Origin: Roseomonas sp. OT10
GTDB lineage: Bacteria > Pseudomonadota > Alphaproteobacteria > Acetobacterales > Acetobacteraceae
DNA length: 64,000 bases
Reading direction: 5' to 3'
Assembly (NCBI RefSeq): GCF_020991085.1
Contig: NZ_CP087719.1
Location: 1,322,001 to 1,386,000, forward strand
Shown here: positions 3,976 to 11,273 of the stretch, in pieces
How positions within the stretch are numbered: the first letter of the stretch is position 1
Layout: each line of letters starts with the position of its first letter
The notes under the pieces: generated by a model
Seen by the model: only the letters and a program-made list of their open reading frames with translations
What the model was told of the DNA's origin: nothing
Database searches by the model: none
Translations under genes and position numbers: made by a program

Positions 3976-4449
3976 TCAGCCGGGGCCGCCACTCCCGGGA
4001 TGGCCCGTGCCGGTGGAGCCGAAGCCGCCCTCGCCGCGCGCGGTGTCCGGCAGCGCCTCCACCACCTCCCAGGCGGCGCGAACGACCGGGGCCAGGATCG
4101 CCTGGGCGATGCGCATGCCGCGCTCGACGGTGAAGGGCTCGGCCCCGGCGTTCCACAGCAGCACCTGCAGCTCGCCGCGATAGTCCTCGTCGATGGTGCC
4201 GGGGCTGTTGGGCATGGTCAGCCCGTGGCGCAGGGCGAGGCCGGAGCGTGGCCGCACCTGCAGCTCGTGCCCCGGCGGGATGGCGATGCGCAGCCCGGTG
4301 GGCACGGGCACGCGCCCGCCGGGCGGGATGGTCAGCGGCCCGGTCACGGCGGCGAGCAGGTCCATCCCCGCCGCGCCGGCGGTGGCATAGGCGGGCAGCG
4401 GCAGCCCTTCGCCATGCGGCAGGCGCACCACCCGGATCGTCGCGGTCAT
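3976..4449 (-). CDS. dut: dUTP diphosphatase (dUTPase)
   Basis: Trimeric dUTPase, 157 aa. It hydrolyses dUTP to dUMP and PPi, keeping uracil out of DNA and feeding thymidylate synthesis. All five motifs are present: AGAAGMDL (residues 24-31), [17 protein letters not shown] with the catalytic Asp (D87) and Tyr (Y90), RGMRIAQ, and the C-terminal Gly-rich arm GGFGSTGTG near 141-149 that closes over the nucleotide. The start ATG overlaps the coaBC stop (ATGA), indicating translational coupling. The frame continues open upstream in antiphase to coaBC, but this is a GC-driven shadow. Confidence 0.97.
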
Positions 4450-5765
4450 GGCCTCTCCCCCGGCACCGGCGGGGCCCCCGCCGTCATCGCGTCCAGTTCC
4501 GCCGCGACCCGCGCGGCCAGCCGTGCCGCGACCGCCTCCTTGGCCATGCGCGGCCAGTCCTCCACCCCCTCCCGCGTGACGAGGTGGACGGCGTTCTCGT
4601 CGCCCCCCATCACGTCGCCGGAGACGTCGTTGGCCACGATCCAGTCGCAGCCCTTGCGCGCCAGCTTGGCCCGGGCGTTCGCCATCAGCGCCTCCGTCTC
4701 CGCCGCGAAGCCGACGACGAGGCGGGGGCGCCGCGCGTGGTGCGACAGGGTGGCCAGGATGTCCGGGTTCGGCACCAGCTCCAGCGACGGGGGCGCCGCG
4801 CCCTCGCGCTTCTTGATCTTGCCCGTGGCGAGGTGCGCCGGCCGCCAGTCGGCCACCGCGGCGGCGCAGATGGCGGCCTCGGCCGGCAGGGCGGCCTCGC
4901 AGGCGGCCAGCATCTCCCGCGCGCTCTCCACCCGCACGACCTCCACCCCGGCCGGGTCGGGCATGGCGACGGGGCCGGCGACCAGCGTCACCCGCGCCCC
5001 CAGCGCGGCCAGGGCGGCGGCGATGGCATGGCCCTGCTTCCCGGAGGAGCGGTTGGCGATGTAGCGCACGGGGTCGATCGGCTCGTGCGTCGGGCCGCTG
5101 GTGACCAGGACGTGGCGGCCCTCCAGGGGACCGGGTGCGTCCCCGGCGGCGATGGCCTCGTCCAGCGCGGCCTCCAGCGCGAGGTCGGGCTCCTGCGGCG
5201 CCGGATCGGCCAGCAGCTCCGCGATGGCGGCGAGGATGGCGGGCGGTTCGGCCAGCCGGCCGGGGCCGCTCTCCGCCTCCGCCATGGCGCCGTCCTCGGG
5301 GCCGACGAAGCGCACGCCGCGATTGGCCAGGATGGCGGCGTTGGCGATGGTCGCGGGGTGCGACCACATCGCCCAGTTCATCGCGGGCGCGACCAGAACC
5401 GGCGCCTGGGTGGCGAGCAGCGTCGCCCCGGCCAGGTCCTCGGCGAAGCCCGCCGCCATGCGCGCGAGGCGGTCGGCGGAGGCGGGGGCGACCACGATGA
5501 GGTCGTGCTGGCGGGCGAGGGCGATGTGGCCGCGCCCCTCGCCCTCCTCCTCCAGCGACCAGAGGTCCTGGGCCAGCGGCCGGCCGGTGATGGCCTGCAA
5601 GGCGTGCGGGGTGACGAAGCGGGTGCCGCCCCCGGTCAGCAGGCCGGTGACCTCCGCCCCCGCCTTGCCCAGCAGCCGCGCCAGCTCCAGCGCCTTGTAG
5701 GCGGCGATGGAGCCGGAGACCACGAGGAGGATGCGCCGGCCGGCGAGGCGGGATGTGTCGCTCAC
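4446..5765 (-). CDS. coaBC: bifunctional phosphopantothenoylcysteine decarboxylase / phosphopantothenate-cysteine ligase
   Basis: Two steps of coenzyme A synthesis in one 439-aa protein: ligation of cysteine to 4'-phosphopantothenate and decarboxylation to phosphopantetheine. The N-terminal CoaC flavoprotein half shows [12 protein letters not shown], the catalytic-His region RGHIALA and the PAMNWAMW motif. The C-terminal CoaB half shows [31 protein letters not shown] and the KIKK loop. The start is a GTG that overlaps the stop of the upstream gene (GTGA), and the 3' end overlaps dut, so three genes are chained. The coaBC-dut pair is a conserved alphaproteobacterial arrangement. Confidence 0.96.
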
Positions 5766-6415
5766 GGATTGAATCCCCGGGCGTTCGGGTCGAAGGCGCG
5801 CGCGGTGGCGGTGTCGAGCCACGCGGTGACGTTGTGCTGGCCGGCGCCGCCCAGCGAGAAGAGCCGGCCCAGGCCGGGGATGTAGAGCTGGTCCATGAAC
5901 AGGTGCGGCGCCTCCGTCGCCACCACCCGCCGGTCGCCGGGGGCGCCCTGGGCGGTGATCCCCGGCCCGGCATGGGCCGCGAGCAGGATGCCCGGGCGGA
6001 GCCGGACGCGGACGATGATGTCGCAATCCGTCCAGGCGACCGGCAGGGCGAGCTGGTTGCGCGCCATCTCCGCCAGCGGGCTGCCGGCGGTGCGGGCGCG
6101 GTCGAGCAGGAGGAGCATGCGGTCCTCCTCCATCCACCAGGGGGAGTTCAGCAGCGGCTCCAGCCCCGGCGCGCCCTGGCCCAGGTAGCGCCTGGCGGCG
6201 AAGCGGTAGAGCAGGTTGTCCTCCGCCAGCAGCACGCGGCGCTTGGCGATCAGCCCGCCGGTGCGGGCGAAGACGTAGCCCTTGGGCGCGTCCGGATCGG
6301 GCAGGGTGGCCAGCCGCTTGCCCCGCCCGTGCGAGGCGTCGCGCCACTGGTAGCCTTCCGCCTCCAGCCGGCAGTTGCTGTCGCGGTACCAGGCCTCGTT
6401 GGCGGCGGCGGCCAT
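5762..6415 (-). CDS. conserved hypothetical protein, 217 aa, between ubiE and coaBC
   Basis: I do not recognise this protein. It has 217 residues, no signal peptide and no membrane segment; several Trp/Tyr-rich conserved-looking stretches ([51 protein letters not shown]) suggest a single globular domain. It starts 13 bp after ubiE and overlaps coaBC by 4 bp, so it is clearly co-transcribed with housekeeping cofactor genes. In many alphaproteobacteria this position is held by ubiB; this protein is much shorter and shows no ABC1/ADCK kinase motifs. Confidence 0.75.
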
Positions 6416-7419: not shown

Positions 7420-8193
7420 ATGCGACGCTCCCTCATCCTGCCGATGCTCCTGTCCCTCGCGCTGCCCCTGGCGGCGCTGCCGGGCGTGCCGATGGCGCAG
7501 ACCGCCGGCCCCGGCAGCACCGCCTCCCGCCCGGGGAGCGGCGCTGCCCAGCGCCCGCCGGCCCCGGCCGCCTCGCGCCCCTCCGCCGCCCAGGGGACGC
7601 AGGCCAGCCGGCAGCGTTCCGCTGCCCCGCCGCGGCAGGCCCCCGCCCAGCCCTCGACCAAGCGGCGCGCCGCCGCGGCCGGGGCTGCCGCCGCCGCCGC
7701 CGCGGCGCGCCCGGCCCCGCCCCAGCCCGCGCCGGAGCCCGAGCCGGAGCCCGCGGTGGGCGCCGTCACCGGCCTGCCGCTGCCCCGCTTCGCGCCGCTG
7801 CGGTCGGACGAGGTGAACATGCGCGCCGGCCCCGGCACGCGCTTCCCGATCGAATGGACGTACCAGCGCCGCGACCTGCCGGTGGAGATCGTGCGCGAGT
7901 TCGACCAGTGGCGGCGCATCCGCGACTTCGAGGGGACGGAGGGCTGGGTCCACCAGTCCAACCTGGGCCTCGGCCGCCGCACCTTCATGATCCGCGAGCA
8001 CGAGCGCACCCTGCGCCGCCGCGGGGAGGAGGGCGCGAACGCCGTGGCCCGCCTCTCCCCCGGGGTGACCGGGCGGATCCGCAGCTGCGCCGCCGGGAGC
8101 GCCTGGTGCGAGGTGCAGGTGGGCGAGCATCGCGGCTGGCTGAAGCGCGACGAGATATTCGGCGTCACCCCGGACGAGGTGATCGGGCAATGA
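7420..8193 (+). CDS. secreted SH3-domain protein
   Basis: 257 aa. Residues 1-26 form a signal peptide (basic start, Leu-rich core, ending PMAQ), followed by a ~90-residue Ala/Pro/Ser/Gln-rich linker with a pure Ala run and PEPEPEP. The C-terminal ~150 residues are two bacterial SH3-like repeats: the first starts with PLPRFAPLRSDEVNMRAGPG and contains WRRIRDFEGTEGWVHQSNL; the second has RIRSCAAGSAWCEVQVGEHRGWLKRDEIFG. Such domains bind peptidoglycan or other envelope polymers. The stop overlaps the start of the nitrile hydratase beta-like gene by 4 bp (ATGA), an odd coupling of an exported envelope protein to a cytoplasmic-type metalloenzyme. Confidence 0.88.
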   Translation: MRRSLILPMLLSLALPLAALPGVPMAQTAGPGSTASRPGSGAAQRPPAPAASRPSAAQGTQASRQRSAAPPRQAPAQPSTKRRAAAAGAAAAAAAARPAPPQPAPEPEPEPAVGAVTGLPLPRFAPLRSDEVNMRAGPGTRFPIEWTYQRRDLPVEIVREFDQWRRIRDFEGTEGWVHQSNLGLGRRTFMIREHERTLRRRGEEGANAVARLSPGVTGRIRSCAAGSAWCEVQVGEHRGWLKRDEIFGVTPDEVIGQ

Positions 8194-8510
8194 GCGATTC
8201 CGAAGGCATCGCGGCACCGGGGCGCGATCCGCGCGCGGCGCATCACGACCTGGGCGGCCATCCGCGCTTCCTCTGCACGGCGGTGGAGCCGGGGGACGAC
8301 GCCCCGCCCGACGCCTTCGGCAAGCGGGTGGACGCGCTGCGCCAGCTGCTCGGCGCCAAGGGGCTGATGAGCGTGGACGAGATGCGCCGTGGCATCGAGG
8401 CGATCCCCGAGGCCGAGTACCACGCCCTGGGCTATTACGAGCGCTGGCTGCGCTCCATCGCCGGGCTGATGGTGGAGAAGGGCATCGTCCCGCCCGAGGT
8501 GCTGCGGTGA
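8190..8510 (+). CDS. nitrile hydratase / thiocyanate hydrolase beta subunit, N-terminal half (free-standing)
   Basis: 106 aa. The start HHDLGG, the DEMRRGIEAIP segment and GYYERWLRSIAGLMVEKG near residues 63-99 match the N-terminal domain of nitrile hydratase beta subunits, including the Arg that in the family contacts the oxidised active-site cysteines. A full beta subunit is about 210-235 aa; this gene stops after the helical half and the rest is a separate gene that overlaps by 4 bp (GTGA). The same fold is also found in NHase/SCNase cobalt-loading activator proteins, so a chaperone role is the main alternative; since the only other beta piece is the C-terminal half, this protein is probably needed structurally. 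Confidence 0.83.
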   Translation: MSDSEGIAAPGRDPRAAHHDLGGHPRFLCTAVEPGDDAPPDAFGKRVDALRQLLGAKGLMSVDEMRRGIEAIPEAEYHALGYYERWLRSIAGLMVEKGIVPPEVLR

Positions 8511-8803
8511 CCGCGCTCGCCCCCGGCCAGCCGGTGCGGGTGCGCGACGACTGGCCGGAGACGCGCGGGCCCTGCCATGTCCGCACGCCGCACTACCTGC
8601 GCGGCCGGGCGGGACGGGTGGCACGGCACCTGGGGGACTTCCCCGACCCCTCCGACCTCGCCTTCGGCCGCCCGGCTCCGGTGCGGCCACTCTACCATGT
8701 GGAGTTCACCCAGCCGCCGCTCTTCGGCGAGGGGCGGGCCGGCGACACGGTCCTGGTCGAGATCTTCGGGCACTGGCTGGAGCCGGTGCGGGGGGGAGGC
8801 TGA
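8507..8803 (+). CDS. nitrile hydratase / thiocyanate hydrolase beta subunit, C-terminal half (free-standing)
   Basis: 98 aa. The sequence corresponds to the SH3-like C-terminal barrel of nitrile hydratase beta: PGQPVRVRDDWP at the start, HVRTPHYLRGRAGRV (residues 24-38, carrying the second conserved active-site Arg), LYHVEF and the terminal VLVEIFGHWLEP. The GTG start overlaps the stop of the N-terminal-half gene, and the stop overlaps the alpha-subunit ATG by one base. A separate gene for this domain is known in thiocyanate hydrolase (ScnA) and in the three-subunit toyocamycin nitrile hydratase; most nitrile hydratases have it fused. Confidence 0.85.
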   Translation: MTALAPGQPVRVRDDWPETRGPCHVRTPHYLRGRAGRVARHLGDFPDPSDLAFGRPAPVRPLYHVEFTQPPLFGEGRAGDTVLVEIFGHWLEPVRGGG

Positions 8804-9387
8804 TGGCCGCGCCGCCACGCGGGGAATCCGTCGCGCTGCTGGACCGCCTGCTCGCCGCGCTCGCGACGCGCGGCGTGGTCACGGCGGCGGAGCTGGATGC
8901 CCGGCAGGAGAGTACGGACCGCGCCTCGCCCGCGATCGGCGCCGCCATGGTGGCGCGGGCCTGGACCGACCCCGCCTTCCGCGCGCTGATGCTGCGCGAC
9001 GGCACCGCCGCGGCGGAGGCGATGGGCGTCTCCATGGCGGGGATGCCGCCGCTGGGCGTGCTGGAGGATACGGAGCACCGCCGCCACCTCGTCGTCTGCA
9101 CCCTGTGCTCCTGCTACCCGCGTGCCGTGCTCGGCTACCCGCCCGGCTGGTTCAAGTCCGCCGCCTACCGGGCGCGGGCGGTGCGCGACCCGCGCGGGCT
9201 GCTGGCGGAATGGGGCACGACCCTGCCCGAGGGCGTGTCCCTCCAGGTCGTGGACAGCACCGCCGACTACCGCTGGATGGTGCTGCCGCTCCGCCCCGGC
9301 GGGACGGAGGGCTGGGAGGCGGCACGCCTGGCCGGGCTGGTCACGGCGGAGGCGATGATGGGCCTCCGTCCGGCCCGCGAGCCCTGA
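8803..9387 (+). CDS. nthA: cobalt-type nitrile hydratase alpha / thiocyanate hydrolase gamma-like subunit
   Basis: 194 aa catalytic subunit. The metal-claw motif VCTLCSC is present near residues 90-96; Thr in the third position is the signature of the cobalt (non-corrin) type, as opposed to Ser in iron enzymes, and the second and third Cys are the ones oxidised post-translationally in this family. The following residues YPRAVLGYPPGWFKS carry Arg where typical cobalt nitrile hydratases carry Trp (YPW). Known activities are hydration of nitriles to amides or hydrolysis of thiocyanate to carbonyl sulfide and ammonia. The gene order beta-N, beta-C, alpha equals scnB-scnA-scnC. No amidase gene is next to it. 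Substrate cannot be assigned. Confidence 0.9.
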   Translation: MAAPPRGESVALLDRLLAALATRGVVTAAELDARQESTDRASPAIGAAMVARAWTDPAFRALMLRDGTAAAEAMGVSMAGMPPLGVLEDTEHRRHLVVCTLCSCYPRAVLGYPPGWFKSAAYRARAVRDPRGLLAEWGTTLPEGVSLQVVDSTADYRWMVLPLRPGGTEGWEAARLAGLVTAEAMMGLRPAREP

Positions 9388-9452: not shown

Positions 9453-11273
9453 ATGATTCCCGTCCTGCACGAGACCGAGCGCGACCGGCTGCTGGACTTC
9501 CTGCGCCGCCGCCTGATCCGCACCATCCCGGCCGGCGGGGGACGACCGTCGCTGGAGGCGGCCGGCGTCGCCGCGGAGGCCGACCCGGCCTGGACCGGGG
9601 CGACGGCCGAGGCGGCCGCGCTGCTCGCCCTGCCGGAGGCCTGGCGCCGCGATCCCGTCCGGGCGCGCGGGCTGCTCGGCTTCGTGCTGGCGATGGGGGA
9701 GGGGGAGGGCATCCTCCGCGGCTGGGCGCCGCCGCAGCGGCTGACGGTGCGCGCCGCCGATCCGCGGCGCTTCGTCATCGAGACTGCCTGGGCCCGCTTC
9801 ACCGGCGACCTGTCGCGCGGCGAGGTGGTGGAGACCCGCCCAGGACCAGGCGGCGAGGCGGAGGCGCGCCACACCGGCAACCTGGTGGAGTTCCGCGCCC
9901 GCGGCCTCTGGCACTGCCTGGACGTGGAGGACCGCATCGCCGCCTACGGCCTCGAGCGCGAAGGCGAGGGGGTGGTGCTGTACCATGAGAGCCCGCTCGC
10001 GGTGCCCGGCCGCTGGCCCTGGCAGCGCGAGGCGGCGCCGGTGGGGACGGTGCGCTACGCCTACCATCTCCAGGCGGACCGCCCGGTGCTGCGCCTTGTC
10101 GTCACGCTGCGCGCGGCGCCGGGGCAGACCCTCCGCGGCGCGCGGCTGACCACCGCCTGGGACGAGCTGGGTGCCCGCGCCGCCTACCGTGCCGTGGCGG
10201 GACAGCGCGATTCCGGCTGGGAGCGGCGGATGGTGACGGAGGAGGCGGGCGCGGTCCCGCTCTTCGACGGGCCGCTGCGCAACCTGGCGCTGCTGGCCGA
10301 GGGCGGCGCGGCCCCGGCCCTGCACGCCCGGCCGCGCGACCCCGCCGCCGTGCTGGGTGTCAGGGGCCATCCCCGCCCCGGCGGCCGGCTGCACTGGGTG
10401 GTGGTGCGCCATGCGGTCGGCACCGTGCCGGGCGGCGGCGAGGCGACGCTGACCGAGGACCGGCTGCTGGAGCCCGCCGGCGCCACGGAGCCGCCCGAGG
10501 CCGCCGCCGCGCGGCTGGAGGACGGCGCCCCCCGGGCCGCGGAGTTCGCCCTGCCGGCGGAGGCCGCGGCGGCGCTGGAGGCGGTGGCCACCGTGCGTCT
10601 CTTCGCCGCCTCCGGGGCCTATGCCGCGCCCGCCGGGCTGCGGGAGTGGCTCGACCGCCACCTCGCCGCGCTGGAGCCGCGGCTGGGGGATGCCGCCGCC
10701 CTGTCCCGCACCGTCTGCGCCCTGGATGCGCTGGCCCGCGCCGACCGGGAGCCGCGCGACGAGGAGCGGCTGGCGGCGCTGGGCGCGCGCCTCGCGGGCC
10801 TCGCCGCGCCGGAGCCCGGCGAGGCGGCGGCGCTGCGGCTGCTGGCCCTGGCCCGCCTGGGGCTGCATGGGGTGGCCGTGCCCGGGCTGGCGGAGCAGGC
10901 GGCCGCCGGCCTCATGGCCTGGCCGGAAGACATGCCGGCCGGAATGGACAGCTCCCTGGCCGGGCTGCTGCTGCGCGCCGTGTCCGCGCTGCGACTCGCC
11001 GGCGAGCGCGGCGACCTGGCGCTGCCGCCCGAGGCCGTCGCCCGGGCCGAGGCGCTGACCGAGGCGCTGCTGCGCCGGTTGCAGATGGCCGCCTGCGACC
11101 GCGGCGCGTCGGGGGTGCAGATCCTGGCGGCGCCCGGGACGCCGCTGGACGCGCGGCCCGACCTGCTGGCGCAGGTGCGGGTCACGCTCGGGCTGGGGCA
11201 CCCGGAGGGGCTGCTCGCCGATCTCCGCCCGGCCAGGGCCGCCCCGCGTCCCAGGGGCGTGGCCGCCGGGTGA
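9453..11273 (+). CDS. unknown 606-aa protein in the nitrile hydratase-like cluster
   Basis: I do not recognise a family. The protein starts at an ATG 65 bp after the alpha-subunit stop. No signal peptide is evident. Residues ~90-370 contain many short alternating hydrophobic strands with aromatic and acidic residues (RRFVIETAWARFTGDLS, GRLHWVVVRHAVGT), consistent with a beta-rich sheet or sandwich domain; residues ~385-600 are Ala/Leu/Glu-rich helices with repeated ALxALARAxxEPRxE-like units. The two-part layout resembles some polysaccharide-acting or terpenoid-cyclase-like proteins only in the broadest sense. Close spacing to the DUF2272 gene (5 bp) indicates co-transcription. Confidence 0.75.
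   Translation: MIPVLHETERDRLLDFLRRRLIRTIPAGGGRPSLEAAGVAAEADPAWTGATAEAAALLALPEAWRRDPVRARGLLGFVLAMGEGEGILRGWAPPQRLTVRAADPRRFVIETAWARFTGDLSRGEVVETRPGPGGEAEARHTGNLVEFRARGLWHCLDVEDRIAAYGLEREGEGVVLYHESPLAVPGRWPWQREAAPVGTVRYAYHLQADRPVLRLVVTLRAAPGQTLRGARLTTAWDELGARAAYRAVAGQRDSGWERRMVTEEAGAVPLFDGPLRNLALLAEGGAAPALHARPRDPAAVLGVRGHPRPGGRLHWVVVRHAVGTVPGGGEATLTEDRLLEPAGATEPPEAAAARLEDGAPRAAEFALPAEAAAALEAVATVRLFAASGAYAAPAGLREWLDRHLAALEPRLGDAAALSRTVCALDALARADREPRDEERLAALGARLAGLAAPEPGEAAALRLLALARLGLHGVAVPGLAEQAAAGLMAWPEDMPAGMDSSLAGLLLRAVSALRLAGERGDLALPPEAVARAEALTEALLRRLQMAACDRGASGVQILAAPGTPLDARPDLLAQVRVTLGLGHPEGLLADLRPARAAPRPRGVAAG

Follow-up and report, generated by a model that had tools for sequence, protein, structure and literature searches.

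Locus Organization

The window considered here, a 64,000-nucleotide (nt) stretch of the genome of Roseomonas sp. OT10 (contig NZ_CP087719.1, positions 1,322,001 to 1,386,000), carries three consecutive genes, betaN, betaC, and alpha, that probably encode a cobalt-type nitrile hydratase (NHase) of the three-subunit kind, in which the beta subunit is divided between two polypeptides (Table 1). Their products match the Pfam families NHase_beta_N, NHase_beta_C, and NHase_alpha, respectively, and all three exceed the curated cut-offs, which bears out the coordinates, frames, and families given in the original prediction of an NHase- or thiocyanate hydrolase (SCNase)-like enzyme at this place. That the genes are chained, as was also proposed there, is seen in the 4-nt overlap of betaN with betaC and the 1-nt overlap of betaC with alpha (TGATG). 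On a single NCBIfam beta model of 226 positions, betaN covers 4-87 and betaC covers 139-226. Among PDB chains, betaN matched the Co-NHase beta chain 3qz9_B (E = 3.1e-7), betaC the Fe-type 1ahj_B (E = 1.8e-12), and alpha 3vyh_A (E = 2.6e-48). The alpha motif, VCTLCSCYPR, holds the predicted cobalt signature VCTLCSC with its cobalt-type claw, CTLCSC. Calculated masses of alpha, betaN, and betaC are 20.7, 10.8, and 11.6 kDa, respectively.

Table 1. Features of the locus, in window coordinates (aa, amino acids).
Feature	Position	Strand	Details
Bacterial SH3 protein upstream of betaN	7420..8193	+	PF06347 74.6 bits; N-terminus signal-like by eye
betaN, NHase beta subunit N-terminal half	8190..8510	+	ATG to TGA, 106 aa; PF21006 54.7 bits (cut-off 21.5)
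GTGA stop/start overlap betaN/betaC	8507..8510	+	4 nt, read from sequence
betaC, NHase beta subunit C-terminal half	8507..8803	+	GTG to TGA, 98 aa; PF02211 55.7 bits (cut-off 27.7)
alpha, metal-binding subunit	8803..9387	+	ATG to TGA, 194 aa; PF02979 228.3 bits (cut-off 27.2)

The Split Beta Subunit in Related Loci

The alpha protein was searched against data holding one genome per species, and the 80 best of the 257 confirmed places were taken as related loci; all 80 keep the order betaN-betaC-alpha. The original prediction had equated this order with scnB-scnA-scnC of SCNase, an equivalence that we also assume. A census of 221 loci, drawn around the window and its phylum and hence not proportioned as in nature, comprised 143 split loci, 57 classical loci (alpha then beta), 17 betaN-alpha fusions, and four loci with a fused beta before alpha. 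With seven named plasmid loci added, the numbers became 147 split, 58 classical (type A), 17 fused betaN-alpha, four with fused beta before alpha (type D), and two SCNase-like with fused beta. The 147 split loci represent 123 different alpha domains and are not all independent, some genomes having been reached by two routes; two of the split loci have the order betaC-alpha-betaN. A second copy of the window's own locus (L002) was left out, and the residue counts given below lack the betaN of locus L121 owing to a name clash.

A frameshift or assembly error that broke a single beta gene has the overlap itself as its sole point in favor, and its probability is negligible. The same split recurs in every one of the 80 relatives, and betaC shares the frame of betaN in none of the 143 loci of betaN-betaC-alpha order, so that this explanation was rejected and the split-beta claim stands. 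A betaC start codon giving the 4-nt overlap is available, as a candidate start, in 131 of the 143. Moreover, when the window was compared with the corresponding locus of R. mucosa ATCC BAA-692 (L003), third-position differences exceeded those at first and second positions in all three genes (14, 24, and 60 differences in alpha at codon positions 1, 2, and 3).

Active-Site and Second-Shell Residues

In classical NHases, two conserved beta arginines hold the oxidized cysteines; the window's betaN and betaC keep one of these each. Arg66, Glu70, and Tyr82 of betaN correspond to beta-Arg52, beta-Glu56, and beta-Tyr68 (counted on an ungapped alignment), betaC Arg26 corresponds to beta-Arg141 of PDB 1ahj (also counted), and betaC His24 would correspond to beta-His147 of 3qxe, judging from the aligned ranges. 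The beta-Arg52 place is occupied by Arg in all 147 split betaN and in all 57 classical fused chains, while the 57 activators have Ala in 41 cases and Arg in three. Glu stands at the beta-Glu56 place in 147/147 split betaN and in 9/57 activators; the beta-Arg141 place is Arg in 146/147 split betaC, with one gap, and the beta-His147 place is His in 146/147 split loci. SCNase (PDB 2dd4 and two loci) has Asn at the Glu56 place and Tyr at the His147 place. Both beta-Glu56 and beta-His147 are described as second-shell residues important in the P. putida NHase (PMC8278588).

The residue following CSCYP in alpha is Arg instead of Trp, as had been pointed out, and on the alignment it is the counterpart of SCNase gamma-Arg136. 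At this place the split loci have Arg (144/147) or Lys (3/147), so Arg136 is not specific to SCNase; the fusions (17/17) and the SCNase-like loci (2/2) have Arg. Among classical loci, 49 of 58 have YPW after CSC and one has TNW, the remainder showing Phe, His, Leu, or Tyr and none Arg or Lys. Two PDB entries, 3vyg (SCNase, with Trp) and 3vyh (Co-NHase, with Arg), differ at this residue from near-identical entries and look like engineered swaps. A second Arg, beside beta-Arg52 (betaN 67), is found in 130/147 split betaN and in SCNase, with His, Phe, or other residues in classical chains, and betaC 27 is Thr in the window, as in SCNase. The enzyme thus combines an NHase-type second shell with SCNase-like arginines, which would face the substrate.

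Placement of Alpha

For the alpha tree, 228 rows were thinned at 80% identity (over 150 aa), which left 76; three PDB rows were added and four rows dropped (the long branches L225, L207, and L202, and L199 beside them). In the resulting 75-row tree, whose bootstrap was not fully settled, a branch with support of 97/97 parts the classical sequences, including PDB 1ugp and 2dpp, from the split-beta rows, the fusions, and SCNase; with the dropped rows included, the classical side still formed one group (98). The window's alpha sits on the split-beta side in a 24-row clade (100/100) and, within it, an 11-row subclade (100/97). SCNase (PDB 2dd4 and L223, a Roseomonas marmotae plasmid locus) forms a 100/100 pair on that side, with the window outside the pair, and the Streptomyces split-beta locus L224 lies on the same side, outside the window's clade. 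With its split beta, no separate activator, and an alpha outside the classical clade, the window's trio departs from the classical two-subunit design.

The pairing of a split beta with one particular side of the tree has few exceptions, namely L121 on the classical side, and L170 and L223, which are SCNase-like with a fused beta on the split side. L121 has CSCYPW, an activator, and a beta in two frames, representing either a true split or an error. In the SCNase-type Roseomonas loci (L223, positions 3978-5627, and L170), the beta halves are fused into one gene, of 283 aa in L223; hence SCNase is not always encoded by three genes, L170 being judged by its likeness to L223.

Activators and Cobalt Loading

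A beta-like activator lies within the examined stretch in 52 of the 57 classical loci. Even with E relaxed to 10, the window's genome yields a single PF21006 match; PF02979, with E up to 0.001, likewise matches once. An activator elsewhere in the genome, suggested as a check on the original prediction, was therefore not found among PF21006-type proteins at E up to 10, in a search that did not cover unrelated chaperones (e.g., COG0523). The PF21006 model does detect activators: of the 250 genomes examined from the order, 105 contain alpha and the same 105 contain PF21006, and the 15 genomes in which PF21006 matches outnumber those of alpha are the ones holding L083-L097, all classical loci with an activator. 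In the betaN tree (284 rows thinned to 98 at 70% identity, over 70 aa), the activators fall into a group of their own (Shimodaira-Hasegawa-like approximate likelihood ratio test, SH-aLRT, 92, from few columns). The possibility that betaN is an activator and that another, full beta lies elsewhere was discarded in view of the lone PF21006 match, the separate grouping of activators, and the kept Arg52, and the split-beta claim survives this check as well.

A stretch was counted as His-rich if 20 aa held at least five His, looking back no more than 50 aa from the alpha domain within the open frame; this frame may extend beyond the true start. Such stretches precede alpha in none of 127 loci of the window's clade, clade membership being that of the nearest tree row, and in 17/18 other split loci and 1/2 unplaced ones (L225, L199). 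They were also found in 17/17 fusions, 2/2 SCNase-like loci, 45/58 classical loci, and 0/4 loci with fused beta before alpha.

Genomic Neighborhood

The SH3 gene overlaps betaN by 4 nt (ATGA). It adjoins the trio, in the same orientation, in 58 of the 80 related loci and is missing in 20 of the 57 that have at least 700 bp upstream; it is a frequent neighbor, for which we claim no functional link to the trio. An upstream open reading frame (ORF) family was found in 21/80 loci, and its representative reads by eye like CoaBC-Dut-MoeB. Flanks of up to 4 kb, often ended by contig ends, were searched with tblastn (E up to 1e-6) using three amidase queries and one query each for CbtA, NixA, and aquaporin; CbtA, a NixA-type transporter, and aquaporin were each detected near the trio in 0/80. 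Contig 2 of the window's genome holds a NicO-type match that is divided into two pieces. Two further proteins of the window, a 606-aa product encoded downstream of alpha (9453-11270) and a 217-aa ORF on the - strand (5765-6415), matched no Pfam family (E up to 0.01).

Among the matches listed, at least five genomes of the genus have alpha and at least two do not, and in G197, which is among the five, the alpha belongs instead to an SCNase-like locus (L170, so classed by its likeness to L223). In our reading, the trio is a hydratase that has been kept although it can be dispensed with.

The 17 loci of the window's family in which betaN and alpha share one frame (L100, L103, L105, L108-L110, L143, L145, L149, L155, L158, L159, L161, L169, L175, L181, and L183) have a His/Asp-rich linker and no betaC alongside, and each of their genomes has one over-cut-off betaC match at a different place. 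An amidase is nearby in 5/8 longer stretches around such fusions (L231-L238). The genome of L230 (G144:C1:203000-208000) has one alpha, in a betaN-alpha fusion, one PF21006 match, and an orphan betaC that follows an amidase gene; a second alpha is present in two other genomes of that genus. This single case hints that a remotely encoded betaC works with the fusion protein. Among plasmids, the split-beta NHase genes of Streptomyces, Rhizobium, and Microvirga (L224, L226, L227) lie near an annotated aquaporin gene in two of three cases and near genes annotated as HoxN/NixA or CbtA/CbtB in all three.

Weighing the Assignment

Several observations weigh against the NHase assignment. On the curated NHase alpha equivalog TIGR01323, the window's alpha scored 212.2 bits, below the cut-off of 249.85, while the alpha of the Streptomyces split-beta locus L224 passes with 267.5 bits. 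On the SCNase gamma equivalog TIGR03887 it scored 153.9 bits (cut-off 291.45), and it thus lies below both cut-offs, nearer to NHase; we infer NHase activity rather than assert it because the NHase cut-off, too, is missed. No amidase was found near the trio in any of the 80 closest loci. The Arg or Lys at betaN 85, present in all 147 split loci, is also found in 27/57 classical chains and is not special. Lastly, alpha has no His-rich N-terminal tail, and the lack of such tails throughout the window's clade means that cobalt loading may differ from that of other split loci.

Could the trio instead be an SCNase, or a close functional equivalent that cleaves thiocyanate in an arginine-lined pocket? 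The split beta, the alpha Arg that corresponds to gamma-Arg136, the basic residues Arg67 and Arg85 of betaN, and betaC Thr27 are all as in SCNase, and a tree constrained to make the window's clade and SCNase sisters surpassed the free tree by 3.9 log units (approximately unbiased test, AU p = 0.581), so that sister kinship is not rejected. The free tree, however, places SCNase with other split-beta loci (81/83), and the shortfall on the gamma model contrasts with the 359.2 bits of the annotated scnC of the Roseomonas marmotae plasmid (L223), which served as the SCNase reference, 398 genomes of the phylum having yielded no over-cut-off SCNase. Furthermore, beta-Glu56 and beta-His147 are of the NHase type, betaN matched SCNase beta at an E of only 0.24, as against 3e-7 for Co-NHase beta, and the genome has no beta-like activator, while SCNase has P15K, as named in a cited title. 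We consider this possibility, one half of the original prediction, to be unlikely and not supported. Less likely still is that betaN serves solely as a maturation chaperone, with activity residing in an alpha-betaC pair or in alpha by itself. PF21006 is common to activators and beta N-halves, and the alpha subunit of toyocamycin NHase (TNHase) was active by itself (Nelp et al., 2014, as cited in PMC7329996), but betaN keeps both Arg52 and Glu56, which activators rarely do, and groups apart from them.

A hydratase of this family that acts naturally on something else, such as cyanide, cyanamide, cyanate, or a nitrile formed inside the cell, and serves a core function and not the breakdown of foreign nitriles, is likelier than these two, although we regard it as doubtful. 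The single genomic copy, the partly kept place beside the SH3 gene and the CoaBC-Dut-MoeB-like ORF, the lack of neighboring amidase genes, and the extra Arg residues would all fit such a role. However, 14 amidase-family matches elsewhere in the genome, including two near each other on the same strand, mean that an amide product could still be used, and the genus members without alpha show that the trio is not essential there.

A Working Model

If the trio is a cobalt-type NHase, its assembly and chemistry can be sketched from known relatives. The three subunits would assemble as a dimer of heterotrimers, with alpha binding Co(III) and two of its cysteines becoming oxidized, and the metal site would hydrate a C-N triple bond to an amide. 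Free betaN may double as a loading chaperone by binding apo-alpha, its counterpart AnhD of the Streptomyces canus NHase acting in this way as AnhD2A, after which betaC would complete the enzyme; a chaperone role is proposed because the genome shows no PF21006-type activator. Splitting of beta would thereby allow the catalytic half to act as an activator too. Owing to the Arg after CSCYP and the additional Arg next to beta-Arg52, the pocket may be more basic than that of classical NHases, which could favor small polar or anionic substrates. As a tentative proposal, the window's Acetobacteraceae clade might represent a distinct, mainly vertical branch that has lost all recognized cobalt-loading modules, both the beta-like activator and the His-rich alpha tail, and in which betaN is both catalytic and a chaperone and an Arg-lined pocket accepts a small polar native substrate in preference to foreign nitriles.

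The activator-free three-subunit design is widespread in the sample around the window (143/221 census loci), and it tracks one side of the alpha tree and the Arg/Lys residue (147/147 split vs 0/58 classical loci) with few exceptions. This association may aid annotation and opens a route to testing how the activator is replaced by a split beta. As they may need no helper gene, enzymes of this design could also be useful as biocatalysts.

Comparison With Known Systems

The closest published design is the Co-NHase of Streptomyces canus CGMCC 13662, encoded by anhD-anhE-anhA, the first two genes corresponding to the N- and C-terminal parts of beta (Guo et al., 2020, PMC7329996). According to that report, its genome has no activator, AnhD acts as a metal and subunit-swapping chaperone with AnhD2A passing on the cobalt-loaded alpha, and the subunits have masses of 10.41, 11.35, and 21.33 kDa (PMC7329996). 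It shares with the window's trio the gene order, lack of an activator, similar masses, and the cobalt motif, while belonging to another phylum and having measured activity; the likeness is one of design and size, not of sequence. Streptomyces L224, the nearest proxy for S. canus, adjoins aquaporin and nickel/cobalt transporter genes, which the window's trio does not.

ToyJKL, the TNHase of Streptomyces rimosus, resembles the trio in subunit number and size and differs in being a biosynthetic enzyme for a nucleoside antibiotic, a comparison made by description, not by sequence. Two of its subunits are presumably beta pieces. A dimer of heterotrimers was reported for TNHase and proposed for the S. 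canus NHase. TNHase has three subunits (PMC12648386), of 21.2, 10, and 11.4 kDa (PMC8574189). The predicted closeness in size to this enzyme holds, but the closer S. canus design had been missed. Three-subunit NHases have been reviewed in PMC11573777, including a Microvirga flocculans plasmid enzyme that has a split beta like the window's but with the beta pieces flanking alpha, an arrangement also seen in Microvirga terrae L227 and Rhizobium L226.

SCNase ScnABC of Thiobacillus thioparus (PDB 2dd4) shares the split beta, Arg136, and the arginines at betaN 67 and 85 with the window; it differs in the Asn and Tyr that replace Glu56 and His147, and the window's alpha lies below its curated cut-off. 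Classical Co-NHases (PDB 1ugp, 3qxe) share the domain families, CTLCSC, the two beta arginines, and Glu56, but have a fused beta, Trp after CSCYP, a dedicated activator, and an alpha on the other side of the 97/97 branch. No report on the window's clade was found in open-licence PMC papers. The split-beta, activator-free design has already been published for a few isolates, and the window's trio is a further case of it that forms its own, well-conserved branch.

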